Below, one piece after another: positions 7,878 to 17,381 of a stretch of 41,884 nt of DNA (the stretch's first letter is position 1; each line of letters opens with the position of its first letter). The stretch comes from Chlamydiota bacterium (GTDB taxonomy: Bacteria; Chlamydiota; Chlamydiia; Chlamydiales; Parachlamydiaceae): contig JABDCW010000013.1 of NCBI GenBank assembly GCA_013287905.1, positions 1-41,884 on the forward strand, given 5' to 3'. Below the pieces are notes generated by a model. That model had not been told where the DNA came from. It saw only the letters and a list, made by a program, of their open reading frames with translations, and did not search any database. The translations under genes and the position numbers were made by a program.

Positions 7878-7950
<73 letters not shown>

Positions 7951-7955
7951 CATCA

Positions 7956-7986
7956 GTAGGAGCACTTTACGTGCTTCTACTTTTTT
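7956..7986 (+). terminator. Rho-independent terminator of tRNA-Phe
   Basis: Ten-bp stem, GTAGGAGCAC (7956-7965) against GTGCTTCTAC (7971-7980) with one G-T pair, loop TTTAC, followed by six T (7981-7986). It sits 5 bases after the tRNA 3' end, the expected place for its transcription stop. Confidence 0.88.
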
Positions 7987-8057
7987 CTCTTGCCGGAGTA
8001 AACGGATATTAAATTTCATTCCGTTATAATCTTGCTCTCGAAACTTCGGTATATATC

Positions 8058-8372
8058 TTAAGCAATTTTTCTAGTGATTTTTGGGCGATAAAAGCCTTTA
8101 TCTATAATTTCCAGCAGCCTTAAAGCCGCATGACTCGGAACGCGGATTCCAGATTCCCAAGATTGAACAGTTTTAATACTGACATTCAAAACTTTTGCAA
8201 AGATTCCTTGAGAGTAATGATTTTGTTCTCGGATTCTTTTGATGTCTTTTGCGTCATATTCTGCAGGAGGTTCAGGAATCTCAATTATTTCGGATTTAAG
8301 GGTTATTTTCCCTTCTGCATGTGCCAGAGCCTCTTCTAAACCCTTTTTAAGACCTTTAAATAATTTACTCAT
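8058..8372 (-). CDS. higA: HigA-like antitoxin with Xre helix-turn-helix
   Basis: 104 residues from the preferred ATG at 8370-8372 (M-S-K-L-F-K-G), which has GAAGG a few bases upstream; an earlier ATG at 8396 exists but lies deeper inside the toxin gene. The N-terminal half (about 1-45) is likely the toxin-binding part. Residues about 46-95 form an Xre-type helix-turn-helix (R-I-R-E-Q-N, S-Q-G-I-F-A-K-V-L, V-S-I-K-T-V-Q-S-W-E-S-G). It overlaps the upstream toxin gene by 8 bases, the usual toxin-first order of higBA-type modules. It probably represses its own promoter at the palindrome 8727-8745. First protein gene of the accessory island. Confidence 0.85.
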   Translation of the reverse strand: MSKLFKGLKKGLEEALAHAEGKITLKSEIIEIPEPPAEYDAKDIKRIREQNHYSQGIFAKVLNVSIKTVQSWESGIRVPSHAALRLLEIIDKGFYRPKITRKIA

Positions 8373-8718
8373 TTCTAACCTTCTTTTTGATAGCATCTGC
8401 TAGTTGTTTAAGTTCGATCTTTTCTGCTTGAGAAAGGTTTTCTTGTTCGTTTTTAGCATAAATAAACAGCAGAAATAAGATCAATTTGTCTTCTATGTCT
8501 AAGTAGCAAACTCGAAAACCACCACTTTTGCCTTTAGTCGCAGATTTCAAACGAGTTTTTCTAATTCCTCCACTGCCAGAAATGACATCGCCTTGTTCTG
8601 GATTTTCAGCTAGGTTCTTTTTGAAATCGTCAAAATCTTCTCTTTTAAGTCTTCTCTTAGCTATGAGGCTTTCAACGGTATCTTCGAAATCTTTTGTCTG
8701 TATTAAATGTCTCTTCAT
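8365..8718 (-). CDS. higB: HigB/RelE-type toxin (HigB2-like)
   Basis: 117 residues, RelE/HigB superfamily mRNA interferase. The central block G-D-V-I-S-G-S-G-G-I-R-K followed by K-G-K-S-G-G-F-R-V-C-Y and L-L-F-I-Y-A-K-N-E-Q-E-N-L is the recognisable signature of HigB2-like toxins, which cut mRNA at the ribosome. The antitoxin gene overlaps its 3' end. The ATG (8716-8718) is about 7 bases from a strong predicted -10 element with no clear ribosome binding site, so the mRNA may be leaderless or near-leaderless (inference). Gene order toxin then antitoxin, with an operator palindrome upstream, supports a complete type II system. Confidence 0.85.
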   Translation of the reverse strand: MKRHLIQTKDFEDTVESLIAKRRLKREDFDDFKKNLAENPEQGDVISGSGGIRKTRLKSATKGKSGGFRVCYLDIEDKLILFLLFIYAKNEQENLSQAEKIELKQLADAIKKKVRNE

Positions 8719-8724
8719 ACCTGA

Positions 8725-8754
8725 AGTATACTACTTAGTAGTATAGATTGTCAA
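8725..8754 (-). promoter_or_regulatory. higBA promoter with overlapping operator palindrome
   Basis: On the minus strand TTGACA (8749-8754) and TATACT (8725-8730) are 18 bases apart, close to sigma-70 consensus. The spacer and -10 contain a perfect palindrome with 9-bp arms TATACTACT / AGTAGTATA around base 8736 (8727-8745). A repressor bound there would block polymerase, as expected for HigA-type autoregulation. Confidence 0.8.
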
Positions 8755-8952
8755 TAACTTATTTTTTGTACAAGGACATATGGATGCTTGTAATTTTTCA
8801 AGAAAGCGAAAAAAAGCCGTAATATAGCCGTAGTTGTGGATTACCAGTCGTTGAAAGAGATGGATTTTGATGACCCGAATTTAGTGGATAATTTAAGCAT
8901 TTTGTCTGTGCACTATAGTAATTTTAGGTGACTAAAGGTTATCCAAAATAAT
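8755..8952. other. Intergenic stretch without a supported gene
   Basis: Between the higBA promoter and the first tRNA-like repeat no convincing gene is seen. A short open frame on the plus strand ends near 8930 (reading ...S-L-K-E-M-D-F-D-D-P-N-L...) but lacks a start with a ribosome binding site. It may be a decayed gene end. Confidence 0.4.
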
Positions 8953-9036
8953 GTAAGGAAGCACTTTTTCAAGACTGAAAATCCTTATGTCGCTGGTTCG
9001 ATTCCCGTCTTAATTTGAAGACACTTATTGATTAAA
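8953..9036 (+). repeat. Degenerate tRNA-Phe 3' half, copy 1 (att-like)
   Basis: Bases 8973-9005 match the anticodon-to-T-loop part of tRNA-Phe (7908-7940) with few changes; the D arm and acceptor stem are lost. The copy at 11999-12088 shares not only this core but also GTAAGGAAGC upstream and about 30 bases downstream (CCGTCTTAATTTGAAGACAC...), so the two are one repeat about 85 bp long in direct orientation, enclosing 3 kb. Best read as relics of site-specific integration at the tRNA gene. Confidence 0.8.
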
Positions 9037-9087
9037 TGGATGATCTGTGGTAGAATAAAGGAAAAACGATGGATAAAGGATATTCTT

Positions 9088-9477
9088 ATGGGCGCATTAA
9101 GTCATAGTATTTTTTCGAATATACCCGAGAAGGATTACCTTTCCCTTTTTGATAAAGGGGAGGCTCGGGCATCTAAAGTGATTGAATTCGTTGAATTTAG
9201 AAAGGATTATGTCGCAAAAGCAGTGGGTGTTCCTCCTAGTTCCATTCGTTATGATGAACGCATGCCTCAAATTCTCAAGGATAGGTTGAGGGAGTGGGCA
9301 AACTTATTTAATTTGGTTGCACAAGTCTTTGAAGGAGATGCCATAAAAACAGCTCTGTGGTTTAAAACAACAAATCCGATGCTAGGCAACATAACACCTC
9401 GCGATATGATACGCTATGGTCGTTACCAGAAATTACTTAAGTTTATTATCAACGCTTTTTCTGAAAACCAACATTAG
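9088..9477 (+). CDS. Antitoxin-like protein, DUF2384 (MbcA/ParS/Xre toxin-binding domain)
   Basis: 129 residues from ATG 9088, chosen because AAAGGA lies 8 bases upstream; an open frame extends back to 9028 but into the tRNA-derived repeat. The N-terminal part (about 25-60) resembles a short helix-turn-helix (Y-V-A-K-A-V-G-V-P-P-S-S-I-R). The C-terminal part with A-L-W-F-K-T-T-N-P-M-L-G-N-I-T-P-R-D-M matches the DUF2384 signature, the domain that binds RES-type toxins. No RES toxin gene adjoins it: the next genes lie on the other strand and look unrelated. So it is an orphan antitoxin or a partner of a new kind of toxin. Confidence 0.75.
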   Translation: MGALSHSIFSNIPEKDYLSLFDKGEARASKVIEFVEFRKDYVAKAVGVPPSSIRYDERMPQILKDRLREWANLFNLVAQVFEGDAIKTALWFKTTNPMLGNITPRDMIRYGRYQKLLKFIINAFSENQH

Positions 9478-9498
9478 AATGCTGCCCAAAAATCATAA

Positions 9499-9530
9499 AT
9501 AGGATTGCAAACACGTTTTTGCAATCCTAT
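9499..9530. terminator. Hairpin between convergent genes, likely bidirectional terminator
   Basis: Perfect 13-bp inverted repeat (9499-9511 and 9518-9530) with a 6-base loop, containing AGGATTGCAAA and its complement. It lies 22 bases after the DUF2384 stop and 35 bases after the converging gene's stop at 9565. The A/T-rich stem base gives a short T-run in both directions. Confidence 0.65.
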
Positions 9531-9564
9531 CCACGCTTTATGTCTTTTTCCTAGGAATACGGAT

Positions 9565-9843
9565 TCAATCATCCTCTATTCTAGTTGTAGAACATGCCAA
9601 GGCGCTTTCCTTAGTCATGGGCGCCTTTCGATACCGAATCATTTTATTTAGCTTCGCATGTGTTTTTTGCATAAGAGAGCATTCTTTTCTAGTACCACCG
9701 GCAAGCCCGTAAAGGGCATCGCTCCTAATGAACTCCCGATCAACCAATCCATACAGGTATTCTAGTTCTTCGATAGTCACTTCTGTTTTCATCAAAGCTT
9801 CTTTGCTTCTTCCAGATTTGTAACTTGCCAACTCAAATTTCAT
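9565..9843 (-). CDS. Small hypothetical protein, second gene of a coupled pair
   Basis: 92 residues, charged and soluble, not recognised. The N-terminus is rich in E and K (T-E-V-T-I-E-E-L-E-Y-L-Y), the middle is G-L-A-G-G-T-R-K-E-C, and the C-terminus is basic then acidic. Its ATG overlaps the stop of the upstream gene by 4 bases (ATGA at 9840-9843), so the two are translated together. The pair stands in the accessory island between an orphan antitoxin-like gene and a long gene-poor stretch. A toxin/immunity or toxin-antitoxin role is conceivable only from context. Confidence 0.6.
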   Translation of the reverse strand: MKFELASYKSGRSKEALMKTEVTIEELEYLYGLVDREFIRSDALYGLAGGTRKECSLMQKTHAKLNKMIRYRKAPMTKESALACSTTRIEDD

Positions 9844-10340
9844 ATCTCTAACTCCTTTTGCAGAGATAGAAATTGCCGCATAGCGCTATGTACTCCTCTT
9901 TGTGTTTCTTTAAAATCCTGCAAATTTAGTTGCTTTGAGACCTCTTCGATGAAGCCTTCTAAAAATCCATACATTTCAATTCTGATCGGTGCTTTACACT
10001 CAATCAGAGGTTTTCTGACTTTTGTTATTAGGTTGCCAGCAGGAACATACGAGTCGCCTCCAAATGCTACCTTTTGTTCAATCTCCTCGTATAACAAATA
10101 CCAATCGGATTGATTTCCATTGTTCTGATATACATTCCAAACGAGATACTTGGTGGTTTCAATCCCTGGGCCAAATCCGAAGGCTTCAAATCCGCCAAAG
10201 CTACCAATTGAAGCTTCTTTTTTGCAGAAATGACGGATTTCAGACGGAACATTAGCATCTTTTAGCGATGCTTGGATGTGTTTAATATCGGCTGAGATAG
10301 AATCTAATTGAGATTTGAAAAGAGCAATATTTTCATTCAT
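9840..10340 (-). CDS. Hypothetical protein, first gene of a coupled pair
   Basis: 166 residues from ATG 10338-10340, which has AGGGG 7 bases upstream; an in-frame ATG further upstream (10385) lacks such a site. The N-terminal ~40 residues look like an amphipathic helix, possibly a coiled coil (F-K-S-Q-L-D-S-I-S-A-D-I-K-H-I). A glycine-rich turn follows (S-F-G-G-F-E-A-F-G-F-G-P-G), then a mixed alpha/beta part. No signal peptide, no membrane segment, no recognised family. The downstream 92-residue gene overlaps by 4 bases. Confidence 0.65.
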   Translation of the reverse strand: MNENIALFKSQLDSISADIKHIQASLKDANVPSEIRHFCKKEASIGSFGGFEAFGFGPGIETTKYLVWNVYQNNGNQSDWYLLYEEIEQKVAFGGDSYVPAGNLITKVRKPLIECKAPIRIEMYGFLEGFIEEVSKQLNLQDFKETQRGVHSAMRQFLSLQKELEI

Positions 10341-11132
10341 AATTTTTCCCCTAATTAAATTTAATAAAATCCAATTCTCAATCAAGAGTTAAAGGGCCCA
10401 ATCAAAGGCAAAGATTGCTTGTACTTAAGTCAACAAGTACAGGCAGAAATATACTGCATTTGTGATATTATGTCCAAGAGTATGAGGAGATCGTAAAAAT
10501 GGCGTGAAGCACTCTGGTTCTATTTCATAGTAGGGAATGTCAAGGGAGGGGATTTGCTCGGTCAAGAAGCATTTTTAACATGTACACTGCTCTTTTCCCA
10601 TTGATTTGTGAGGTAGGGCTTTACTTTGATAAGGATTCTAGCTCATAGAGAAGCTTCATCCCCTCGATAAATTGGTTCGAGAACACTCCGGCTTTGGCCA
10701 CATCACCGGAGACATTTTCAGAAATGATCATGTCTTCGGCTTTTTCATTTTGTAAGTCTTTGTTTCCTTAATTATTTTTTGCCAGAATGAATATTTTTTG
10801 AGGGTTTTTGAGCTTATTGATATGTCTACAAGTAATCCCCAATGTTCAGTGAGCTTGAGTTCTCGAAAGGTTCTCCCTAAAACTTTAGTTCTTCAATCAT
10901 AAAAATCCTTTTTGGCAATTAACATGGAAATTAACATAGAAACACATGAAATTCAAGTTTTTCTATGTTCTTTACTATACCCTTTATGTGTTGTCTGATC
11001 TGCTTCCACTGGTAAATTCTCAGCAAATTTAAGTTTCTATACAACATAATTTTTATCAGAATTTTAGATTGAAAGATTGATTTGATCATGATAGGATGAT
11101 CATTTTTCAAACTTGAGAATAGGTGAAGTCCC
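10341..11132. other. Long gene-poor stretch of the island
   Basis: About 790 bases without an intact gene. It holds one probable gene remnant (10621-10767, listed separately), several small hairpins and A/T-rich sequence. The SD-like AGGTGA for the GNAT gene lies at its right end. No tRNA, terminator or repeat family seen elsewhere in the window is recognised here. It looks like decayed accessory DNA. Confidence 0.5.
10621..10767 (-). pseudogene. Possible 3' remnant of an unknown gene
   Basis: Open frame of 48 codons ending in TAA at 10621-10623, opened by an in-frame stop at 10768 and without a suitable start. It reads as balanced protein sequence (for example N-V-S-G-D-V-A-K-A-G-V-F-S-N-Q-F-I-E-G and L-L-Y-E-L-E-S-L-S-K at the end). 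Composition is protein-like, but the family is not recognised. Confidence 0.35.
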
Positions 11133-11774
11133 TTGTTAAAATCCTTCTTACTGCTGACTCTTTTTATTTCAGCATCTCTTTTCGGAGATCAAATTTTTCA
11201 AGATAAAAACCAGAATGAAATACGAATCTCTGTTGTGAAATCAGTGGAAGACATTGATCTGGAGAAGGGTCAAGATATTTTAGTTAGAAGCTTTATGAAC
11301 GCTTATGAAGATGTTCCTCTTTCAGAACTAAACCCCGAGTTTAAGTGTACTGGTGATGTAAGACGTTTTTATGAAAATTACTTTAAAGAAGAGCTAGAGC
11401 ATTTTAAGGAAGGCCACTTATTTTGGGTTCAGGCTTTTTTAAATAACAAAATTGTTGGATGGGCCACCTTCGAATTAGAGCCGCTGGAAGCAAATGCTGC
11501 TTACATGAATCTTCTTATTGTGGCACCAGAATATCAAAGAATGGGGATTGGAAAATATTTAACATTTTCAATATGCTCAGAAGATCTATTTTCAAATATA
11601 CAAGCTATAAATTTGCTCATCAGAAAAGTCAATATAGAGGGCTATAATTTTTATTATAGATTGGGATTCTTTGAGTTCGATTATCATCGTGACGACTTTG
11701 TAGACCCATCTCTTTTGACAGGTTTAAGGTGGGAAAAGAATCGGAACACACGCGGTCAAGCATCAGATCAATAA
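11133..11774 (+). CDS. GNAT-family N-acetyltransferase with a signal peptide
   Basis: 213 residues starting with TTG at 11133, with AGGTGA (11121-11126) in the right place. Residues 1-18 are a typical Sec signal peptide (hydrophobic L-L-L-T-L-F-I-S-A-S-L-F-G). The GNAT fold follows: beta strands around V-G-W-A-T-F-E-L (108-115) and M-N-L-L-I-V-A-P-E-Y (125-134), then the acetyl-CoA-binding motif Q-R-M-G-I-G (135-140). GNAT enzymes use cytosolic acetyl-CoA, so an exported one is unusual and suggests action outside the bacterium, for example in the host (inference). Stands alone, with no operon partner. Confidence 0.78.
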   Translation: MLKSFLLLTLFISASLFGDQIFQDKNQNEIRISVVKSVEDIDLEKGQDILVRSFMNAYEDVPLSELNPEFKCTGDVRRFYENYFKEELEHFKEGHLFWVQAFLNNKIVGWATFELEPLEANAAYMNLLIVAPEYQRMGIGKYLTFSICSEDLFSNIQAINLLIRKVNIEGYNFYYRLGFFEFDYHRDDFVDPSLLTGLRWEKNRNTRGQASDQ

Positions 11775-11945
11775 AAACTTAAAAAGGACGGTGAGGTCTC
11801 AGGCGTTATAGATAGGGTAGCAAGGAATATCCAAATGAATTTTCAGGGATCCAAGGGTTTTCCAAGACAAACATGGATAGAATGAGGGCATTTTACCTGT
11901 CATATTCAATTTCCCCACATACTGTGGGTAAATTAGAAGATCTAC
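11775..11945. other. Intergenic stretch
   Basis: No gene. A small perfect stem CCCACA / TGTGGG (11914-11928) is the only structure seen. It leads into the hydrolase-gene fragment and the second tRNA-like repeat. Confidence 0.4.
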
Positions 11946-12002
11946 TTCCAGGGTAAATCGAAGTAATCACTCAATTTTTCGGCTTCTATTCCCAAATCAG
12001 TA
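11946..12002 (-). pseudogene. Displaced fragment of the RBBP9-like hydrolase gene
   Basis: 57 bases identical, apart from one T/C change, to 18566-18622, an internal part of the hydrolase gene at 18355-18912. Same orientation, no start or stop. It abuts the second tRNA-Phe-like repeat (11999-12088), so a rearrangement joined the two. The near-identity implies a recent duplication or recombination event. Confidence 0.85.
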
Positions 12003-12088
12003 AGGAAGCGACTGAGGAAGACTGAAAATCCTTGTGCCGCTGGTTCGATTCCCGTCTTAATTTGAAGACACTATTGATTAAATGGATG
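11999..12088 (+). repeat. Degenerate tRNA-Phe 3' half, copy 2 (att-like)
   Basis: The core 12020-12052 matches the tRNA-Phe anticodon-to-T-loop segment. Flanks match copy 1 (8953-9036): GTAAGGAAGC upstream and TTAATTTGAAGACAC then TTGATTAAATGGATGA downstream. The T-arm 3' strand is changed, so it cannot form a tRNA. Confidence 0.8.
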
Positions 12089-12263: not shown

Positions 12264-12308
12264 CCGCACAACAATCCATTTCAAATACATATGTAGAGTG
12301 TTTTGTCT

Positions 12309-13808
12309 ATGAAATCATCAAAAAAACAAGCAAATAAAATCAGTGGACGTGTGAGAGAACAGCTTATTTTGGATCGACTCTTTGCAACTGAAAAGTCCGA
12401 GTTTTTGACGTTATACGGCCGGCGCCGAGTTGGAAAAACATTTCTTGTTAGGAATTTTTTTGAGAAAAAGCCGTGTTTGTTTTTTTATGTTACTGGGATA
12501 CAAGAAGGGAAACTGAAGGAACAACTAGGACAATTTACAAAACAAATTAGCACCATCTTTTATGAAGGTATATCTATTGTTCCCTACAAATCATGGTCAG
12601 AGGCTTTTGAGGCCCTGACAACAGCAATGTTGAAAGTATCAAAACGAACGAAAATTGTTCTATTTTTTGATGAGTTTCCATGGATGGCAACAAAACGTTC
12701 AGGATCACTTAGTGCACTGGAATATTTTTGGAATAGGCATTGGACTCACGATCCGAGGTTAAAGTTAATCATATGTGGGTCTTCAGCATCTTGGATAATC
12801 GACAAAATTGTTAATAATAAAGGAGGTCTTCACAATCGTGTAACAAGAACAATGATATTAGAACCGTTGAATTTACACGACACTAAGGCGTATCTGGCAG
12901 ACCTTGGTAATAAACTAAATGATCGCCAAGTTTTAGATCTCTATATGGTCTTGGGTGGAATACCACATTATTTATCTTTGGTTGAAAAAGGATTATCTGC
13001 CCAACAATGTATCGAAGAACTATTTTTTAGGAGAGATGGTGCTTTGGTAAATGAGTTTGACCGCCTGTTTTCCTCTTTATTCAAAGAGTCTTCAGCATAT
13101 ATAGACATCATCCGTATTATCGCTAACCACCGCTACGGGATAGGTCAAGCTCAATTGATTCGAGAAATTAAGTTGTCGAGCGGTGGAGGTACCACACGTC
13201 GTCTAAAAGAACTGGAGGAGGCAGGCTTTATTGTTAGTTTTCTCCCGCATGGGCACTCTGATAAGGGGTTGTACTATAAGGTGATCGATGAGTACACATT
13301 ATTCTATCTCCATTGGTTGGAACCACGAATTACTGCGATACGCAATCGAGACCAAAGTCCAGGATATTGGCTTTCAAAATCACAGTCGTCTGGTTGGAAA
13401 AGTTGGTCAGGATATGCATTTGAAGCCGTTTGTAATAAACATATCGCCCAAATCAAAAAAGCATTAAATATCGATCCAGGATCTGAGTCTGGGTCATGGA
13501 GGTATGTTCCCCGTCAGAATCCTGAAGATGAAAAGGATGGAGGCGGAGCGCAGATAGATTTGTTATTTGATCGACCAGATCAAGCGATTACTGTTTGTGA
13601 AATCAAATATTCAATGCAGCCATTTACCATCGATAAAGTTTATGCACAAGCCCTTGCGAAAAAGGTAGAGGTGTATCAACAGCAGACAAGAACAAAGAAA
13701 CAAATATTTCTTGTAATGATTACGAGTGCTGGATTGAAATCATCAAAGCATTATGACGAGTTAATTTCCCAGGAAGTTACATTGGGAGACCTGTTTAAAT
13801 CTGTTTGA
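12309..13808 (+). CDS. P-loop ATPase with C-terminal DUF234 / PD-(D/E)XK-like domain
   Basis: 499 residues from ATG 12309 (a TTG two codons earlier is possible). Numbering here is from the TTG. Walker A is G-R-R-R-V-G-K-T (39-46), Walker B is L-F-F-D-E-F-P-W (120-127), and a sensor-like C-G-S-S-A-S occurs at 158-163. A winged-helix part (about 265-335) follows, then a C-terminal domain whose spaced E374, D419 (A-Q-I-D-L-L) and E433-x-K435 (C-E-I-K-Y) resemble a PD-(D/E)XK nuclease site. This is the archaeal ATPase_2/DUF234 architecture also common in amoeba-associated bacteria. Biological role is unproven; a mobile-element or conflict role is suspected. Confidence 0.85.
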   Translation: MKSSKKQANKISGRVREQLILDRLFATEKSEFLTLYGRRRVGKTFLVRNFFEKKPCLFFYVTGIQEGKLKEQLGQFTKQISTIFYEGISIVPYKSWSEAFEALTTAMLKVSKRTKIVLFFDEFPWMATKRSGSLSALEYFWNRHWTHDPRLKLIICGSSASWIIDKIVNNKGGLHNRVTRTMILEPLNLHDTKAYLADLGNKLNDRQVLDLYMVLGGIPHYLSLVEKGLSAQQCIEELFFRRDGALVNEFDRLFSSLFKESSAYIDIIRIIANHRYGIGQAQLIREIKLSSGGGTTRRLKELEEAGFIVSFLPHGHSDKGLYYKVIDEYTLFYLHWLEPRITAIRNRDQSPGYWLSKSQSSGWKSWSGYAFEAVCNKHIAQIKKALNIDPGSESGSWRYVPRQNPEDEKDGGGAQIDLLFDRPDQAITVCEIKYSMQPFTIDKVYAQALAKKVEVYQQQTRTKKQIFLVMITSAGLKSSKHYDELISQEVTLGDLFKSV

Positions 13809-14023: not shown

Positions 14024-14119
14024 ATGGGAAGATTTTGCAGAATCTGCGGTCAGTCGCGCTCAAACGAAAGCTTTTCTGGTAAAGGTCATAGACAATGTAT
14101 TTGCAAGAAGAGCCCATGA
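14024..14119 (+). CDS. Cys-rich mini-protein, truncated zinc-ribbon-like family
   Basis: 31 residues: M-G-R-F-C-R-I-C-G-Q-S-R then N-E-S-F-S-G-K-G-H-R and C-I-C-K-K. The C-x-x-C-G and C-x-C-K-K pairs with an F-S-G-K-G-H-R linker resemble a widespread family of small two-CxxC proteins (M-G-R-F-C-R-I-C-G-R type), which normally continue past the second pair. Here the second pair is C-x-C and the protein stops soon after, and there is no clear ribosome binding site. It may be a remnant. Its 3' end overlaps the end of the converging AbiEi-like remnant. Confidence 0.4.
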   Translation: MGRFCRICGQSRSNESFSGKGHRQCICKKSP

Positions 14120-14598
14120 GATTTTGAGTCCTTTGCTTGCCATTGTTTTGCGTATTTCAAAGCGATTAAATTCCCAAAATCAAATTTAGAAAGAGGGTTT
14201 AAGCTTTTTTTCAAAGCGATAAGAACATCTTTTTGACAACCAATTTGCTGTCCTATGGCTCCCAGTAAGGCTCTAACACGCGGAGGTTCTGATTCTGCAA
14301 CTTGAATAAGACGTTCAAATTGATGTTTTTCATCGAAATGCTTCAGCAGTCGTTTTACTGTTTCTTTTGGGGATAGTTCACTCGTTTTGCCGCCTTGACG
14401 AAGAAAGTCTAGAAGAGCGGCATCTTTGGTGGAGAGATTTCTCCAAGATTCAGGTCTTCTGGTGTGAATAATCGTATCTTGACCAACAATGGATCGAGGG
14501 AGGCTGAGTCGATTCGTTGCAACCTCGATTTTTGCTGCGTTTTGAGTTGTAAAACCCAATAAATTAGAAGCGGCATTGCCAGCTGGGAAAATCTTTTT
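14086..14598 (-). pseudogene. AbiEi-like antitoxin, N-terminally truncated remnant
   Basis: Open frame of about 170 codons without its own start. It begins P-A-G-N-A-A-S-N-L-L-G-F-T-T-Q and then A-A-K-I-E-V-A-T, parallel to P-T-G-A-Y-A-A-N-I-L-G-L-S-E-Q and P-A-K-V-V-F-L-T in the intact AbiEi at 16729-17352. The later part (S-W-R-N-L-S-T-K-D-A-A-L-L-D-F-L-R; R-V-R-A-L-L-G-A-I-G) is an intact-looking C-terminal domain. The wHTH domain is missing, replaced by the methyltransferase gene, whose TGA stop is in the same frame. Confidence 0.65.
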
Positions 14599-15312
14599 TC
14601 ATAATGGATTCTTTTGTAAGATAAGGTTAATTACTTTCCTTGTATAGATTTTCCCGTGCATCGGGCTGCTGGAAGTTTTTTCTGAAGCTTCTATTACAGT
14701 GAACAGGTCACTAAATTCGTTGGATAAATCAGAAATTGAATAAAGGTACGAAGGGATATTTGCATAGGGGTCTATAACCATTTTTTCTATAGGGCAAGGA
14801 GAATTCTGTAAAAGAGGACCGTAAAACTCGTCATTTATAGAAGCTAAGGAAATGAAATAAAACCCATTTGGTTTCATGGCTTTCCATAATTCCCTTCGGT
14901 AATTTTTTTGTGACTGTTTATTTGTGATGTGCTTGTAGCAAAATATATCAATTGCAATGTCTAGGGAATTTGGAATTATAGACCATTTTGATGAAACATC
15001 TTGAGCAAATGCGGTAATGGGTAGTTTTGTTCGATCAGCTTCTCTCATGACGGCATTGACATTGTCTTGTAATAAATCGATAGCGATAACAGAAAATCCG
15101 CGACTGGCTAAATAAAAGCTGTTTCGCCCAAGTCCGCATCCTAAATCTGCGGCCTTTTGTCTCTCATTACTAGGTTGCGTTTCGAGCCATGAAATGAACT
15201 CTACCACGGCATTTGTAGGGTCTTTTCTAAAAGATGAAGGGATTCCTTGTCTTTTATATTCATCAGCCCAGGCTTCTGTTGGGTGAGGAATCTTGGGATA
15301 GTTTTGAGTCAT
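14599..15312 (-). CDS. Class I SAM-dependent methyltransferase
   Basis: 237 residues. Motif I is A-A-D-L-G-C-G-L-G-R-N (54-64), and the acidic residue binding the SAM ribose is D79 in V-I-A-I-D-L. A later W-K-A-M-K-P-N-G-F-Y-F-I-S-L strand-turn is motif-III-like. Substrate not identifiable; small-molecule or lipid methylation is as likely as any. GGACGG lies 7 bases before the ATG at 15312. It is 35 bases downstream of the AbiEii-ankyrin gene on the same strand and may be co-transcribed. Its stop is directly followed, in frame, by the AbiEi-like remnant. Confidence 0.85.
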   Translation of the reverse strand: MTQNYPKIPHPTEAWADEYKRQGIPSSFRKDPTNAVVEFISWLETQPSNERQKAADLGCGLGRNSFYLASRGFSVIAIDLLQDNVNAVMREADRTKLPITAFAQDVSSKWSIIPNSLDIAIDIFCYKHITNKQSQKNYRRELWKAMKPNGFYFISLASINDEFYGPLLQNSPCPIEKMVIDPYANIPSYLYSISDLSNEFSDLFTVIEASEKTSSSPMHGKIYTRKVINLILQKNPL

Positions 15313-15347: not shown

Positions 15348-16727
15348 CTATGGCAATGGGATCTCGTGGTACATGTCATAATGCTGAGCGTAGCCTGTTC
15401 CTGGAGGCGACATGGGGCGAGCACCTTTGGAGCGTAAGAGATCGGAAATTGATTTATTCTTTTCAGAAATAGCAACTTGATAGGGTGTTAATCCACTTTT
15501 ATCCGCAGAGTGGATATCAGCTCCTAGGCTAACTAGGCGTTTGACTAATTCAAGTTTTTTGCGTGATTCCAGATTGGCTTTGATTAATAATTGCAAAGAG
15601 CGATGTCCATTCCAGGAAATATCATTAATGTTAGCGCCCGCATTTAAGATTTTCGTCACGGATTGCACTAATTCATCTCCTCTTTGCTTGACTAGCACCT
15701 CTCCTAGAGAAAGCAAAGATATAGTGAGATTGATGCGATGTTCTAGTTCTGATAAAGCTCTTAGGATGTCGTCAAAATTTACAGGTTCAGTAAGATACAT
15801 GTCGCGCATCAACTGATAATCACGTCGCAATTCAGGCAGCCTTTCATCTCTAGGAACAAGACGAAAAGTACCGGGTTTAGCTTCAGTGTAGTTTGTCCAT
15901 GAGTCACGAAAGAACAGATTTTTCCATGAAACGACTCTATCTCGGAGGTCATGATGATCAATAGCCTTGATTGCTTCAGGGTGATTTGCTAGTGCCGCGG
16001 TATCCGCATAATGACGGGAGAATCGATCTCGTATTGGTTTATCGAGTGGTCGATGATATTCTGCATGTAGAATCGTAGCCTTTTCCCAGAAAGTTCGCTC
16101 GATCTCTAGAGCTACGACTTCACATTGCCAATCGGAAAAAGCTGCAGGGAAAACCTCCGCAATCCAAGGTCGTATTGTATGGCGCCCGGTTGGTTGCTGA
16201 TCAGTTAGAGAGCCAAATTCGAGTTTCACAGAACGTTTAATATAGGCAAATCCAGTTGGTAGCGATGATGGGTAGTGGAAAAGAATTACCGGTGACTTGG
16301 TTTGAGGGTCTTTTAAAAACTCGAATCTTGTCTGCTCATTTTTTCCTAATATTTCCAATGTCGAGGTTTCTAACATCGCCATAATCTGAGTTTGAACAGC
16401 TATCTCACAGGCTTCTTCAGCTTTTTTCCACCATTTATCAGCTTGGCTGCGATTTGCAGCGGTTTCAGGAAGTCCAAGAAAAATAGGCGACAGCGAAAGA
16501 TCGATATCTTCAGAAAACCGATTGATTGCGCCAAATATTTTTGATAGGGAAGTACCCCCTTTGAATACAAGGCTTTCAGTGAACTCAGACTCGAATAGAA
16601 TAGTGAGCAACCAGCACACGAAGAAATCTTTCTCCATGATTACAGGAGATATATTTCTTTGAATGGCAGCTTGTTCAATGTACAGACGCCGTTCGTCAGA
16701 AGGTAGTTTTAAAAAATCAAGTTTCAC
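15348..16727 (-). CDS. AbiEii-type nucleotidyltransferase toxin fused to ankyrin repeats
   Basis: 459 residues, GTG start (16725-16727) with GAGGAG upstream. N-terminal AbiEii/AbiGii domain (1-335): F-K-G-G-T-S-L (55-61) and E-D-I-D-L-S (73-78, D74/D76) form the nucleotidyltransferase active site, E-R-T-F-W-E-K follows (210-216), then R-D-R-F-S-R-H-Y-A-D. Residues about 340-436 contain ankyrin repeats: I-L-N-A-G-A-N-I-N-D; L-V-S-L-G-A-D-I-H-S-A-D; K-S-G-L-T-P-Y-Q-V-A-I and D-L-L-R-S-K-G-A-R. Ordinary AbiEii proteins (about 300 residues) end before this. The toxin arm of type IV TA/abortive-infection AbiE is known to act by nucleotide transfer; the ankyrin tail is unusual and its purpose unknown. 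Confidence 0.88.
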   Translation of the reverse strand: MKLDFLKLPSDERRLYIEQAAIQRNISPVIMEKDFFVCWLLTILFESEFTESLVFKGGTSLSKIFGAINRFSEDIDLSLSPIFLGLPETAANRSQADKWWKKAEEACEIAVQTQIMAMLETSTLEILGKNEQTRFEFLKDPQTKSPVILFHYPSSLPTGFAYIKRSVKLEFGSLTDQQPTGRHTIRPWIAEVFPAAFSDWQCEVVALEIERTFWEKATILHAEYHRPLDKPIRDRFSRHYADTAALANHPEAIKAIDHHDLRDRVVSWKNLFFRDSWTNYTEAKPGTFRLVPRDERLPELRRDYQLMRDMYLTEPVNFDDILRALSELEHRINLTISLLSLGEVLVKQRGDELVQSVTKILNAGANINDISWNGHRSLQLLIKANLESRKKLELVKRLVSLGADIHSADKSGLTPYQVAISEKNKSISDLLRSKGARPMSPPGTGYAQHYDMYHEIPLP

Positions 16728-16728
16728 T

Positions 16729-17352
16729 TCAAGTCTCCTCGGCTAATTCCTTGAAAATAGAATGCATCCATTCCGGTGCAAATCGAATATCCTTGAGCAG
16801 TTCTTTGCGAGCATTCAGTGGTATAGTTCGCTTTAAATGTTTAAGTCGTTCAGGAGTGACATTTTCTTTGCCTAATTCACGGAACGTTTGAACTAAAAGA
16901 CCGCTGAGCCGTCCTGCCATTACCATGTTTTTGGGGGTCGTGCGTCGCAGCTGAATGGTTGTCGACCCTATTTTTACCGTTCGACTTGGTCCGTCTGTCA
17001 GAAATACAACTTTAGCAGGGACTTGTTCGGATAGTCCCAGGATATTTGCTGCATAAGCGCCCGTTGGTTGAATACGAGTGCAATCTCTGCCAACTAAGGC
17101 CTCTGCTATTTTTTCTGGAGATGGTTGAAGTGTTCCAAGCTTAGGATGTTCTTTAGGAAAATCATATATTCCTCTTGTGAGTCGACGAATAGTTCTTTTT
17201 CGAACGAGTCGGTAAAGAACAATATCGACAGTTTGCCGACTGCCAAGAGTCAAAAAGTCAGTTGGAACAAATACTGCGCCCTGCCCAAGAATGGTTATTG
17301 CATTAAGTATTTGCTGATCAATACTATTCGGTTTTTTTTGATTCTTCTTCAT
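16729..17352 (-). CDS. AbiEi-type antitoxin (wHTH, DUF6088-like)
   Basis: 207 residues. Winged helix at about 12-65 (Q-Q-I-L-N-A-I, Q-T-V-D-I-V-L-Y-R-L-V, R-R-L-T-R-G-I-Y-D-F-P), then the AbiEi C-terminal domain (Q-P-T-G-A-Y-A-A-N-I-L-G-L-S; V-F-L-T-D-G-P-S-R-T; L-R-R-T-T-P-K-N-M). The stop is 1 base from the toxin start, and antitoxin-first order is normal for abiE. AbiEi proteins neutralise AbiEii and repress their own promoter by binding inverted repeats; such a repeat is at 17352-17381. So this is a complete module, unless the ankyrin tail has changed its logic. Confidence 0.87.
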   Translation of the reverse strand: MKKNQKKPNSIDQQILNAITILGQGAVFVPTDFLTLGSRQTVDIVLYRLVRKRTIRRLTRGIYDFPKEHPKLGTLQPSPEKIAEALVGRDCTRIQPTGAYAANILGLSEQVPAKVVFLTDGPSRTVKIGSTTIQLRRTTPKNMVMAGRLSGLLVQTFRELGKENVTPERLKHLKRTIPLNARKELLKDIRFAPEWMHSIFKELAEET

Positions 17353-17381
17353 GTAAGAAATATTGACATGTTTTTCTTACA
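17352..17381 (-). promoter_or_regulatory. Inverted repeat upstream of the abiE-like operon (putative AbiEi operator)
   Basis: TGTAAGAAA (17352-17360) and TTTCTTACA (17373-17381) form a perfect 9-bp inverted repeat with a 12-base spacer immediately before the ATG. The start codon shares its last position. A weak promoter may overlap it (TTGCAT near 17385). The position and spacing fit an autoregulatory operator. Confidence 0.65.

Follow-up and report, generated by a model that had tools for sequence, protein, structure and literature searches.

A portable C-terminal tail of predicted ankyrin fold on an AbiE-type toxin and on unrelated toxins of Chlamydiota

From its sequence, we firmly assign a gene pair in the stretch of Chlamydiota DNA analysed here (the window, 41,884 nucleotides) to the AbiE type of toxin-antitoxin systems, with a toxin that bears a C-terminal tail. 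Toxins of unrelated fold elsewhere in the phylum end in a tail of the same kind, for which an ankyrin-repeat fold is predicted, and its standing as a portable toxin module is well supported by searches, alignments and trees. Its presence on unrelated toxin enzymes would make it an interchangeable part, one that probably attaches a range of toxins to a shared partner. Our leading reading, held tentatively, is that it docks all of these nucleotidyltransferase and Fic toxins to one conserved partner, which would set the place or time of their action.

The gene pair and its setting

The features of the pair are as follows.

15348..16727, minus strand: AbiEii-type nucleotidyltransferase toxin with C-terminal tail (ORF, PF08843, PADLOC PDLC02289; 459 aa, GTG start)
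15351..15716, minus strand: portable C-terminal tail of the toxin, residues 338-459, predicted ankyrin fold, ending in PPGTGYAQHYDMYHEIPLP
15723..16727, minus strand: toxin core, residues 1-335, predicted MenT3/TglT-like fold
16500..16559, minus strand: active-site motifs I-II, G57-G58-x15-D74-I-D76 with R70 and S72 (sequence, conservation and the motif definition in excerpts of PMC3985639)
16729..17352, minus strand: AbiEi-like antitoxin, DUF6088 (ORF of 207 aa; PF19570, 161 bits; PADLOC PDLC02226, E 1.5e-68)
17352..17381, no strand: operator-like inverted repeat with 9-bp arms (17352-17360 and 17373-17381, 12 nt between), touching the antitoxin start codon

In the ORF list the antitoxin gene comes first on the minus strand and the toxin gene follows after one base (16728). 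The first-pass annotation had taken the two for an apparently intact AbiE-type module with a C-terminal ankyrin module, and this description holds up: the ORFs, PF19570 and the PADLOC AbiEi model agree on an AbiEi-like antitoxin one base from the toxin, Pfam and PADLOC recover the toxin, and fold prediction recovers the ankyrin module. The HMM search it had suggested for the core returns AbiEii in both libraries (PF08843, 124.7 bits over residues 41-323 with a cut-off of 22.5; PDLC02289, E 4.2e-96 over residues 2-334). Against the NCBIfam AbiEi model the antitoxin scores 17.1 bits, far under the cut-off of 150.

The nucleotidyltransferase residues said to be kept, G-G-T-S and D74/D76, are indeed present (G57-G58-T59-S60, D74, D76), together with R70 and S72; all are invariant in a 48-row alignment with the exception of G58, which is kept in at least 90%. 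G57-G58-x15-D74-I-D76 with R70 matches the AbiEii motif description, hG[G/S]x15DhD plus an arginine, in excerpts of PMC3985639. K216 and R238-H-Y-A-D242 are also invariant in the 48 rows, and the motif III +7 arginine and the first aspartate of motif IV are absent. Aligned by eye, S72 stands two residues ahead of the first aspartate, like S78 of MenT3, which is the phosphorylated serine of that toxin (PMC11375011, excerpts). The full-chain toxin model (mean pLDDT 88.3, pTM 0.72) predicts a MenT3/MenT4-like fold along the entire core.

The 9-bp inverted repeat reported at the start of the antitoxin gene is confirmed, its arms (TGTAAGAAA / TTTCTTACA) pairing at 9 of 9 bp. An equally long repeat arose in 1 of 500 mononucleotide shuffles of the 48-nt stretch. 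The arms are identical in seven of ten close relatives and differ by one base in the other three, with a variable spacer; the distant relative L101 has a different repeat. A promoter scan found two sites, below the shuffle mean of 5.8.

A tRNA gene and two partial copies of it lie elsewhere in the window.

7878..7951, plus strand: tRNA-Phe gene
8973..9005, plus strand: 33-bp copy of the tRNA-Phe 3' half, 1 mismatch
12020..12052, plus strand: 33-bp copy of the tRNA-Phe 3' half, 1 mismatch

A shuffled version of the window contained no copy of the 3' half at nine or fewer mismatches. Together the three elements partition 7878-12052 into segments, a layout that would suit the stepwise addition of modules. 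In 14 relatives of the window module, tRNA-Phe lies 0.1-3.3 kb past the toxin end in six, two have the 3'-half copy only, and the DNA examined holds neither in the remaining six; in L010 and L115 the module stands between tRNA-Phe and a 3'-half copy about 3 kb off, and in L113 a tRNA-Ser is close to the antitoxin. Because the window module lies beyond the last 3'-half copy found, we infer its membership of an island rather than observe it. Genes for tRNA or tmRNA occur at 9 of the 38 loci scanned, so that proximity to a tRNA marks the window-type module more than tailed toxins generally. Around another tailed AbiE, two loci from two families (L082 and L100) share 88% DNA identity over 2.5 kb and 82% over 2.0 kb; both have a tRNA-Leu, and L100 has a serine-recombinase-like gene close by (under curated cut-offs).

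Several other genes of the region deserve mention. At 8058-8718 (minus strand), adjoining tRNA-Phe, lie a tail-less RelE-family toxin (PF06296, 39.5 bits) and its HTH_3/NadS-like partner, and 9028-9477 gives a weak Xre/MbcA/ParS antitoxin match, under cut-off. An ATPase at 12303-13808 (plus strand) corresponds to the PADLOC phage-defence candidate PDC-S27 (E 1.5e-170). At 14086-14600 (minus strand) is the remnant of an AbiEi-like antitoxin, its N-terminal part missing (PDLC02226 positions 96-197, E 2.6e-12), and no toxin follows it on its strand. The source genome assembly (G000; 93 contigs, 74% complete) holds a second AbiEii (L002, G000:C64:849-1916), which is tail-less, 36% identical, has two in-frame stops and adjoins a DUF6088-like antitoxin frame.

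The tail on different toxin cores

Fold prediction and matches to solved structures place the extra domain at residues 338 (approximately) to 459, and because of these two lines we assign it a predicted ankyrin fold. The first-pass annotation was thus right about the kind of domain and wrong about its extent, given as 340-436. Of the checks it proposed, structure prediction returned an ankyrin fold for the C-terminal domain, and the HMM search for ankyrin repeats divided: the best Pfam match in the window toxin, Ank_4, reaches 21.3 bits against a curated cut-off of 22.7, and some tailed relatives (P0129, L100) pass. A profile of the tail (A1) run against solved structures met ankyrin and designed-repeat chains only, among the best 60 of 373 matches. 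For the Fic-tail protein P0134, AlphaFold2 with five rows gave a mean pLDDT of 47, and the model was set aside.

Ordinary AbiEii proteins might have been expected to share this C-terminus, a possibility raised at the outset. Among the best 120 of 7913 relatives of the window toxin, 29 are tailed, three have a partial tail and 88 have none, so the tail is not part of ordinary AbiEii. Record titles name Chlamydiae, Parachlamydiaceae, Rhabdochlamydiaceae and Simkania, with a few Verrucomicrobia or Acidobacteria. A search with residues 338-459 alone returned 44 proteins, seven of them strong matches with a different core: five nucleotidyltransferases outside the assigned groups (P0121, P0124-P0126, P0129) and AbiEii proteins of PDLC02294 (P0122) and PDLC02288 (P0128). 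Querying 232 genomes of the phylum in all six frames with the tail of the window toxin added Fic proteins, an NTP_transf_8 enzyme and more AbiEii groups. The same fusion, which the annotation had suggested seeking in chlamydial genomes, was therefore found on further AbiEii proteins and also on Fic and other nucleotidyltransferases, in at least eight tailed toxin groups in Chlamydiota: five of AbiEii (PDLC02289, 02294, 02288, 02293 and 02304), two of other nucleotidyltransferases, and Fic mob_myst_B. Four tailed Fic proteins were scored against TIGR02613, the model for mobile mystery protein B, and each exceeds its cut-off; the model, of 186 positions, stops ahead of the tail. Fic itself is present in at least 188 of the 232 genomes searched.

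A profile built from 32 tails (A3, leaving out L098, L103-L107, L114, L115 and L119) gave 41 matches of at least 82 bits in the 232 genomes. A toxin core or its remnant carries 38 of these, a count in which 32 of the 41 had built the profile and six of the other nine are toxin cores or remnants. They sort into window-type AbiEii (11), other AbiEii (11, one a fragment), other nucleotidyltransferases (2) and Fic (14, several truncated or deletion-bearing and two assigned by eye). Of the three matches that lack a toxin core, one lies at a contig edge, one is an orphan tail (L155:3037-3348, 104 aa), and in the third, L098:3317-4753, the tail is at the N-terminal end of the frame, ahead of an APH phosphotransferase (kinase-like) domain. 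Among fifteen extra regions, five contribute more Fic-tail proteins, whose HTH partners are spaced at -19 to +3 nt, and in two (L156, L158) a tail end accompanies a toxin remnant; one is L155, six have generic ankyrin or other non-toxin proteins and one gave no match. L154 and L151 hold a similar pair of proteins, not toxin-like, with C-terminal ankyrin repeats.

In the aligned toxins the tail is always C-terminal, and a shared hairpin pattern, defined after the tails had been viewed, occurs in 58 of 64 tails versus 0 of 36 generic ankyrin proteins. An upstream partner on the same strand, resembling one of eight antitoxin-type genes, accompanies 35 of 39 tail-bearing frames, at a spacing of -60 to +10 nt in 31 of those 35. 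These partners include DUF6088, several AbiEi groups, AbiEi_2, a MarR-like protein of 328 aa and HTH_3. The four misses are L105 and L107, cut by the contig end, L082, with a broken toxin gene, and L100, whose AbiEi_4-like gene overlaps by 71 nt, beyond the limit, and scores 24.3 bits against a cut-off of 25.

Alignments and trees indicate that the histories of tail and core disagree. DNA was compared between eight pairs of loci whose toxin cores differ: in six of them similarity is confined to the tail, and in none does it extend into the core. The match comes within 13 nt of the stop for L102/L113 (75% over 366 nt), L102/L108 (78% over 365), L102/L114 (77% over 358) and L090/L095 (79% over 356); it covers most of the tail in L091/L092 and lies inside it in L090/L092 (69% each), and between the loci of L091/L097 and of L101/L099 there is no DNA match. 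In a tree of 64 tails (121 columns, many unsettled forks; P0023 with its cut tail, fragments and contig-edge frames left out, P0128-like tails kept) the five nucleotidyltransferase tails fall among AbiEii tails, and P0125/P0127 and L090/L095 are well-supported sister pairs of different core. The core tree, from which 5 of the 120 proteins were dropped for incomplete cores and two broken ones were left uncounted, demands at least 20 changes in tail presence over the 113 rows counted, five of them forced by well-supported branches alone; shuffled tail labels gave a mean of 26.3, and a count as low as the observed one came up once in 500 shuffles. Loss does occur, since a stub of the beginning of the tail remains in several tail-less relatives and the tail of L115 is interrupted by a stop. 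By these reconstructions the tail has been repeatedly gained or lost, and as it is often lost with the pair retained it is not essential. Where present, it is under purifying selection: in ten intact fusions median dN/dS is 0.143 for the tail (44 pairs) versus 0.113 for the core (45 pairs).

Three other origins of the tail were considered and rejected. A chance extension does not agree with the 29 tailed proteins among the best 120 relatives or with the dN/dS of 0.143, and fresh recruitment of a generic ankyrin each time does not agree with the common hairpin pattern and the DNA similarity across cores. A phage or plasmid reservoir was dismissed, since at E 1e-5 neither phages nor plasmids matched the tail and a pattern-based search of viral contigs confirmed none.

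What the tail may bind

Positions 2, 3 and 5 of the ankyrin hairpin are those varied in designed ankyrins for ligand binding. Across the 32 tails, two repeats show near-fixed residues at positions 3 and 5 (0.40-0.73 bit; residue counts N 29, H 29, S 30, L 28) and a variable position 2 (2.15-2.61 bits), whereas generic ankyrin repeats (n=191, a mixed set) reach 3.69-3.86 bits at positions 3 and 5. Because the tails are related by descent and the comparison set is heterogeneous, this contrast is suggestive only; the fixed ligand-facing positions might stem from folding or common descent. A protein-binding role is plausible, and it is strengthened by the occurrence of the same tail on unrelated toxins.

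We infer that the tails may have one common partner, in keeping with the near-fixed ligand-facing positions and with antitoxins that are alike with or without a tailed toxin. Against a single partner per cell stand differing tail types within one genome (G134, G135, G145, G147), and against a portable dock the two of eight different-core pairs lacking a DNA match and the three of 41 matches off toxin cores. In the mechanism we propose, the AbiEi-like antitoxin would repress the operon and silence the toxin core, perhaps via S72, as MenA3 acts via S78 of MenT3 (PMC11375011, excerpts). The partner of the tail would be a conserved bacterial protein other than the antitoxin, with phage or amoeba proteins as less likely candidates, and toxins of differing chemistry could thereby share a single targeting or release switch. 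That the cassette, passing between nucleotidyltransferase and Fic operons, wires them as a network of toxins to a single conserved cell protein is rather unlikely on present evidence. If true, enzymes of unrelated fold would respond to one trigger or be steered to one target. Toxin-antitoxin pairs are usually viewed as closed two-part units. A tail shared across toxin folds and antitoxin families suggests a further component common to them, whose discovery would show what triggers or directs these toxins in intracellular bacteria; the tail, at 120 residues, could serve as bait for it.

The repeats could instead pack on the core and keep it inactive or stable, with no outside partner. The chain as a whole was modelled in one piece at a pTM of 0.72 and the tail keeps its C-terminal place in the aligned toxins, both of which suit such an intramolecular regulator. 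Yet close relatives manage without the tail, and the cores that bear it include different folds (nucleotidyltransferase, Fic) and divergent AbiEii groups, a range that an internal interface fitted to one core would not readily accommodate; we regard this alternative as unlikely.

Distinctly unlikely is a sensor whose tail, on binding a phage protein, would release the toxin and so abort infection. AbiE systems can confer phage resistance (PMC3985639, excerpts), and the window contains further defence-like genes. However, the low dN/dS of the tail and its fixed ligand-facing positions do not describe a diversifying surface, although conserved phage proteins do exist.

Ankyrin repeats are frequent in the effectors of intracellular bacteria, and the first-pass annotation had wondered whether the system was re-purposed as one. 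In such a case the toxin would be secreted into the amoeba and its tail would bind a host protein. Matches of the ankyrin region to AnkH/AnkY effector models are weak, far under their cut-offs. The antitoxin is retained beside the toxin, the toxin N-terminus aligns with tail-less relatives, among them L014 (49%, record titled Betaproteobacteria), and the nucleotidyltransferase, Fic and NTP_transf_8 cores each keep their own, unrelated antitoxin families, all of which speaks against this re-use; it is not supported, and we consider it very unlikely.

Most improbable, and rejected, is a docking surface for the cognate antitoxin: antitoxin and toxin genes do adjoin in the window, as they do wherever the upstream side of a relative can be read (bar L105, L107, L082 and L100), but at matched core identity antitoxins resemble that of the window to a similar degree beside tailed and tail-less toxins (83-94% versus 82-88% at core identities of at least 82%, 78-83% versus 76-81% at 74-78%, leaving out L101 with its diverged tail), and the tail also pairs with the unrelated AbiEi_4, AbiEi_2, MarR-like and HTH_3 partners.

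Comparison with known systems

The window pair resembles AbiE (AbiEi/AbiEii) in its two-gene operon with an AbiEi-like antitoxin first, its DUF1814/PF08843 toxin with hGGx15DhD plus an arginine, and an inverted repeat at the antitoxin start (PMC3985639, excerpts). It differs in the C-terminal tail and in an antitoxin that is DUF6088 and falls far below the NCBIfam AbiEi cut-off; moreover, it has one short inverted repeat where AbiE has two 23-bp half sites, and R-H-Y-A-D in motif IV where AbiE has +DxxD (same excerpts). MenT3/TglT (Rv1045) and MenT4 of Mycobacterium tuberculosis are 13-16% identical to the window core with a similar predicted fold, but their chains, of 288-292 residues, are tail-less. 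Mobile mystery protein B/A shares with the window pair, in its Chlamydiota members, the same kind of tail and an upstream partner, here of HTH type, whereas the Fic fold of protein B is unrelated to the AbiEii core.

The open-access literature searched, in the portions available, yielded no description of an AbiEii-tail fusion or of a shared toxin tail, and neither is described in the excerpts of PMC3985639, PMC11375011, PMC3482391, PMC10880633, PMC9997750 and PMC6364476. RNase L, which joins ankyrin repeats to a catalytic part, is an analogy of fold only: it is eukaryotic, its repeats are N-terminal and its enzyme is an RNase. Polymorphic toxin systems are likewise modular, with recombining parts (PMC3482391, excerpts), but there the C-terminal toxin domain varies, whereas in the chlamydial proteins the C-terminus is constant and the N-terminal enzyme varies. 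If the shared-partner reading is true, the tail would thus invert the polymorphic toxins, as a constant C-terminal controller to which interchangeable N-terminal toxins are joined.
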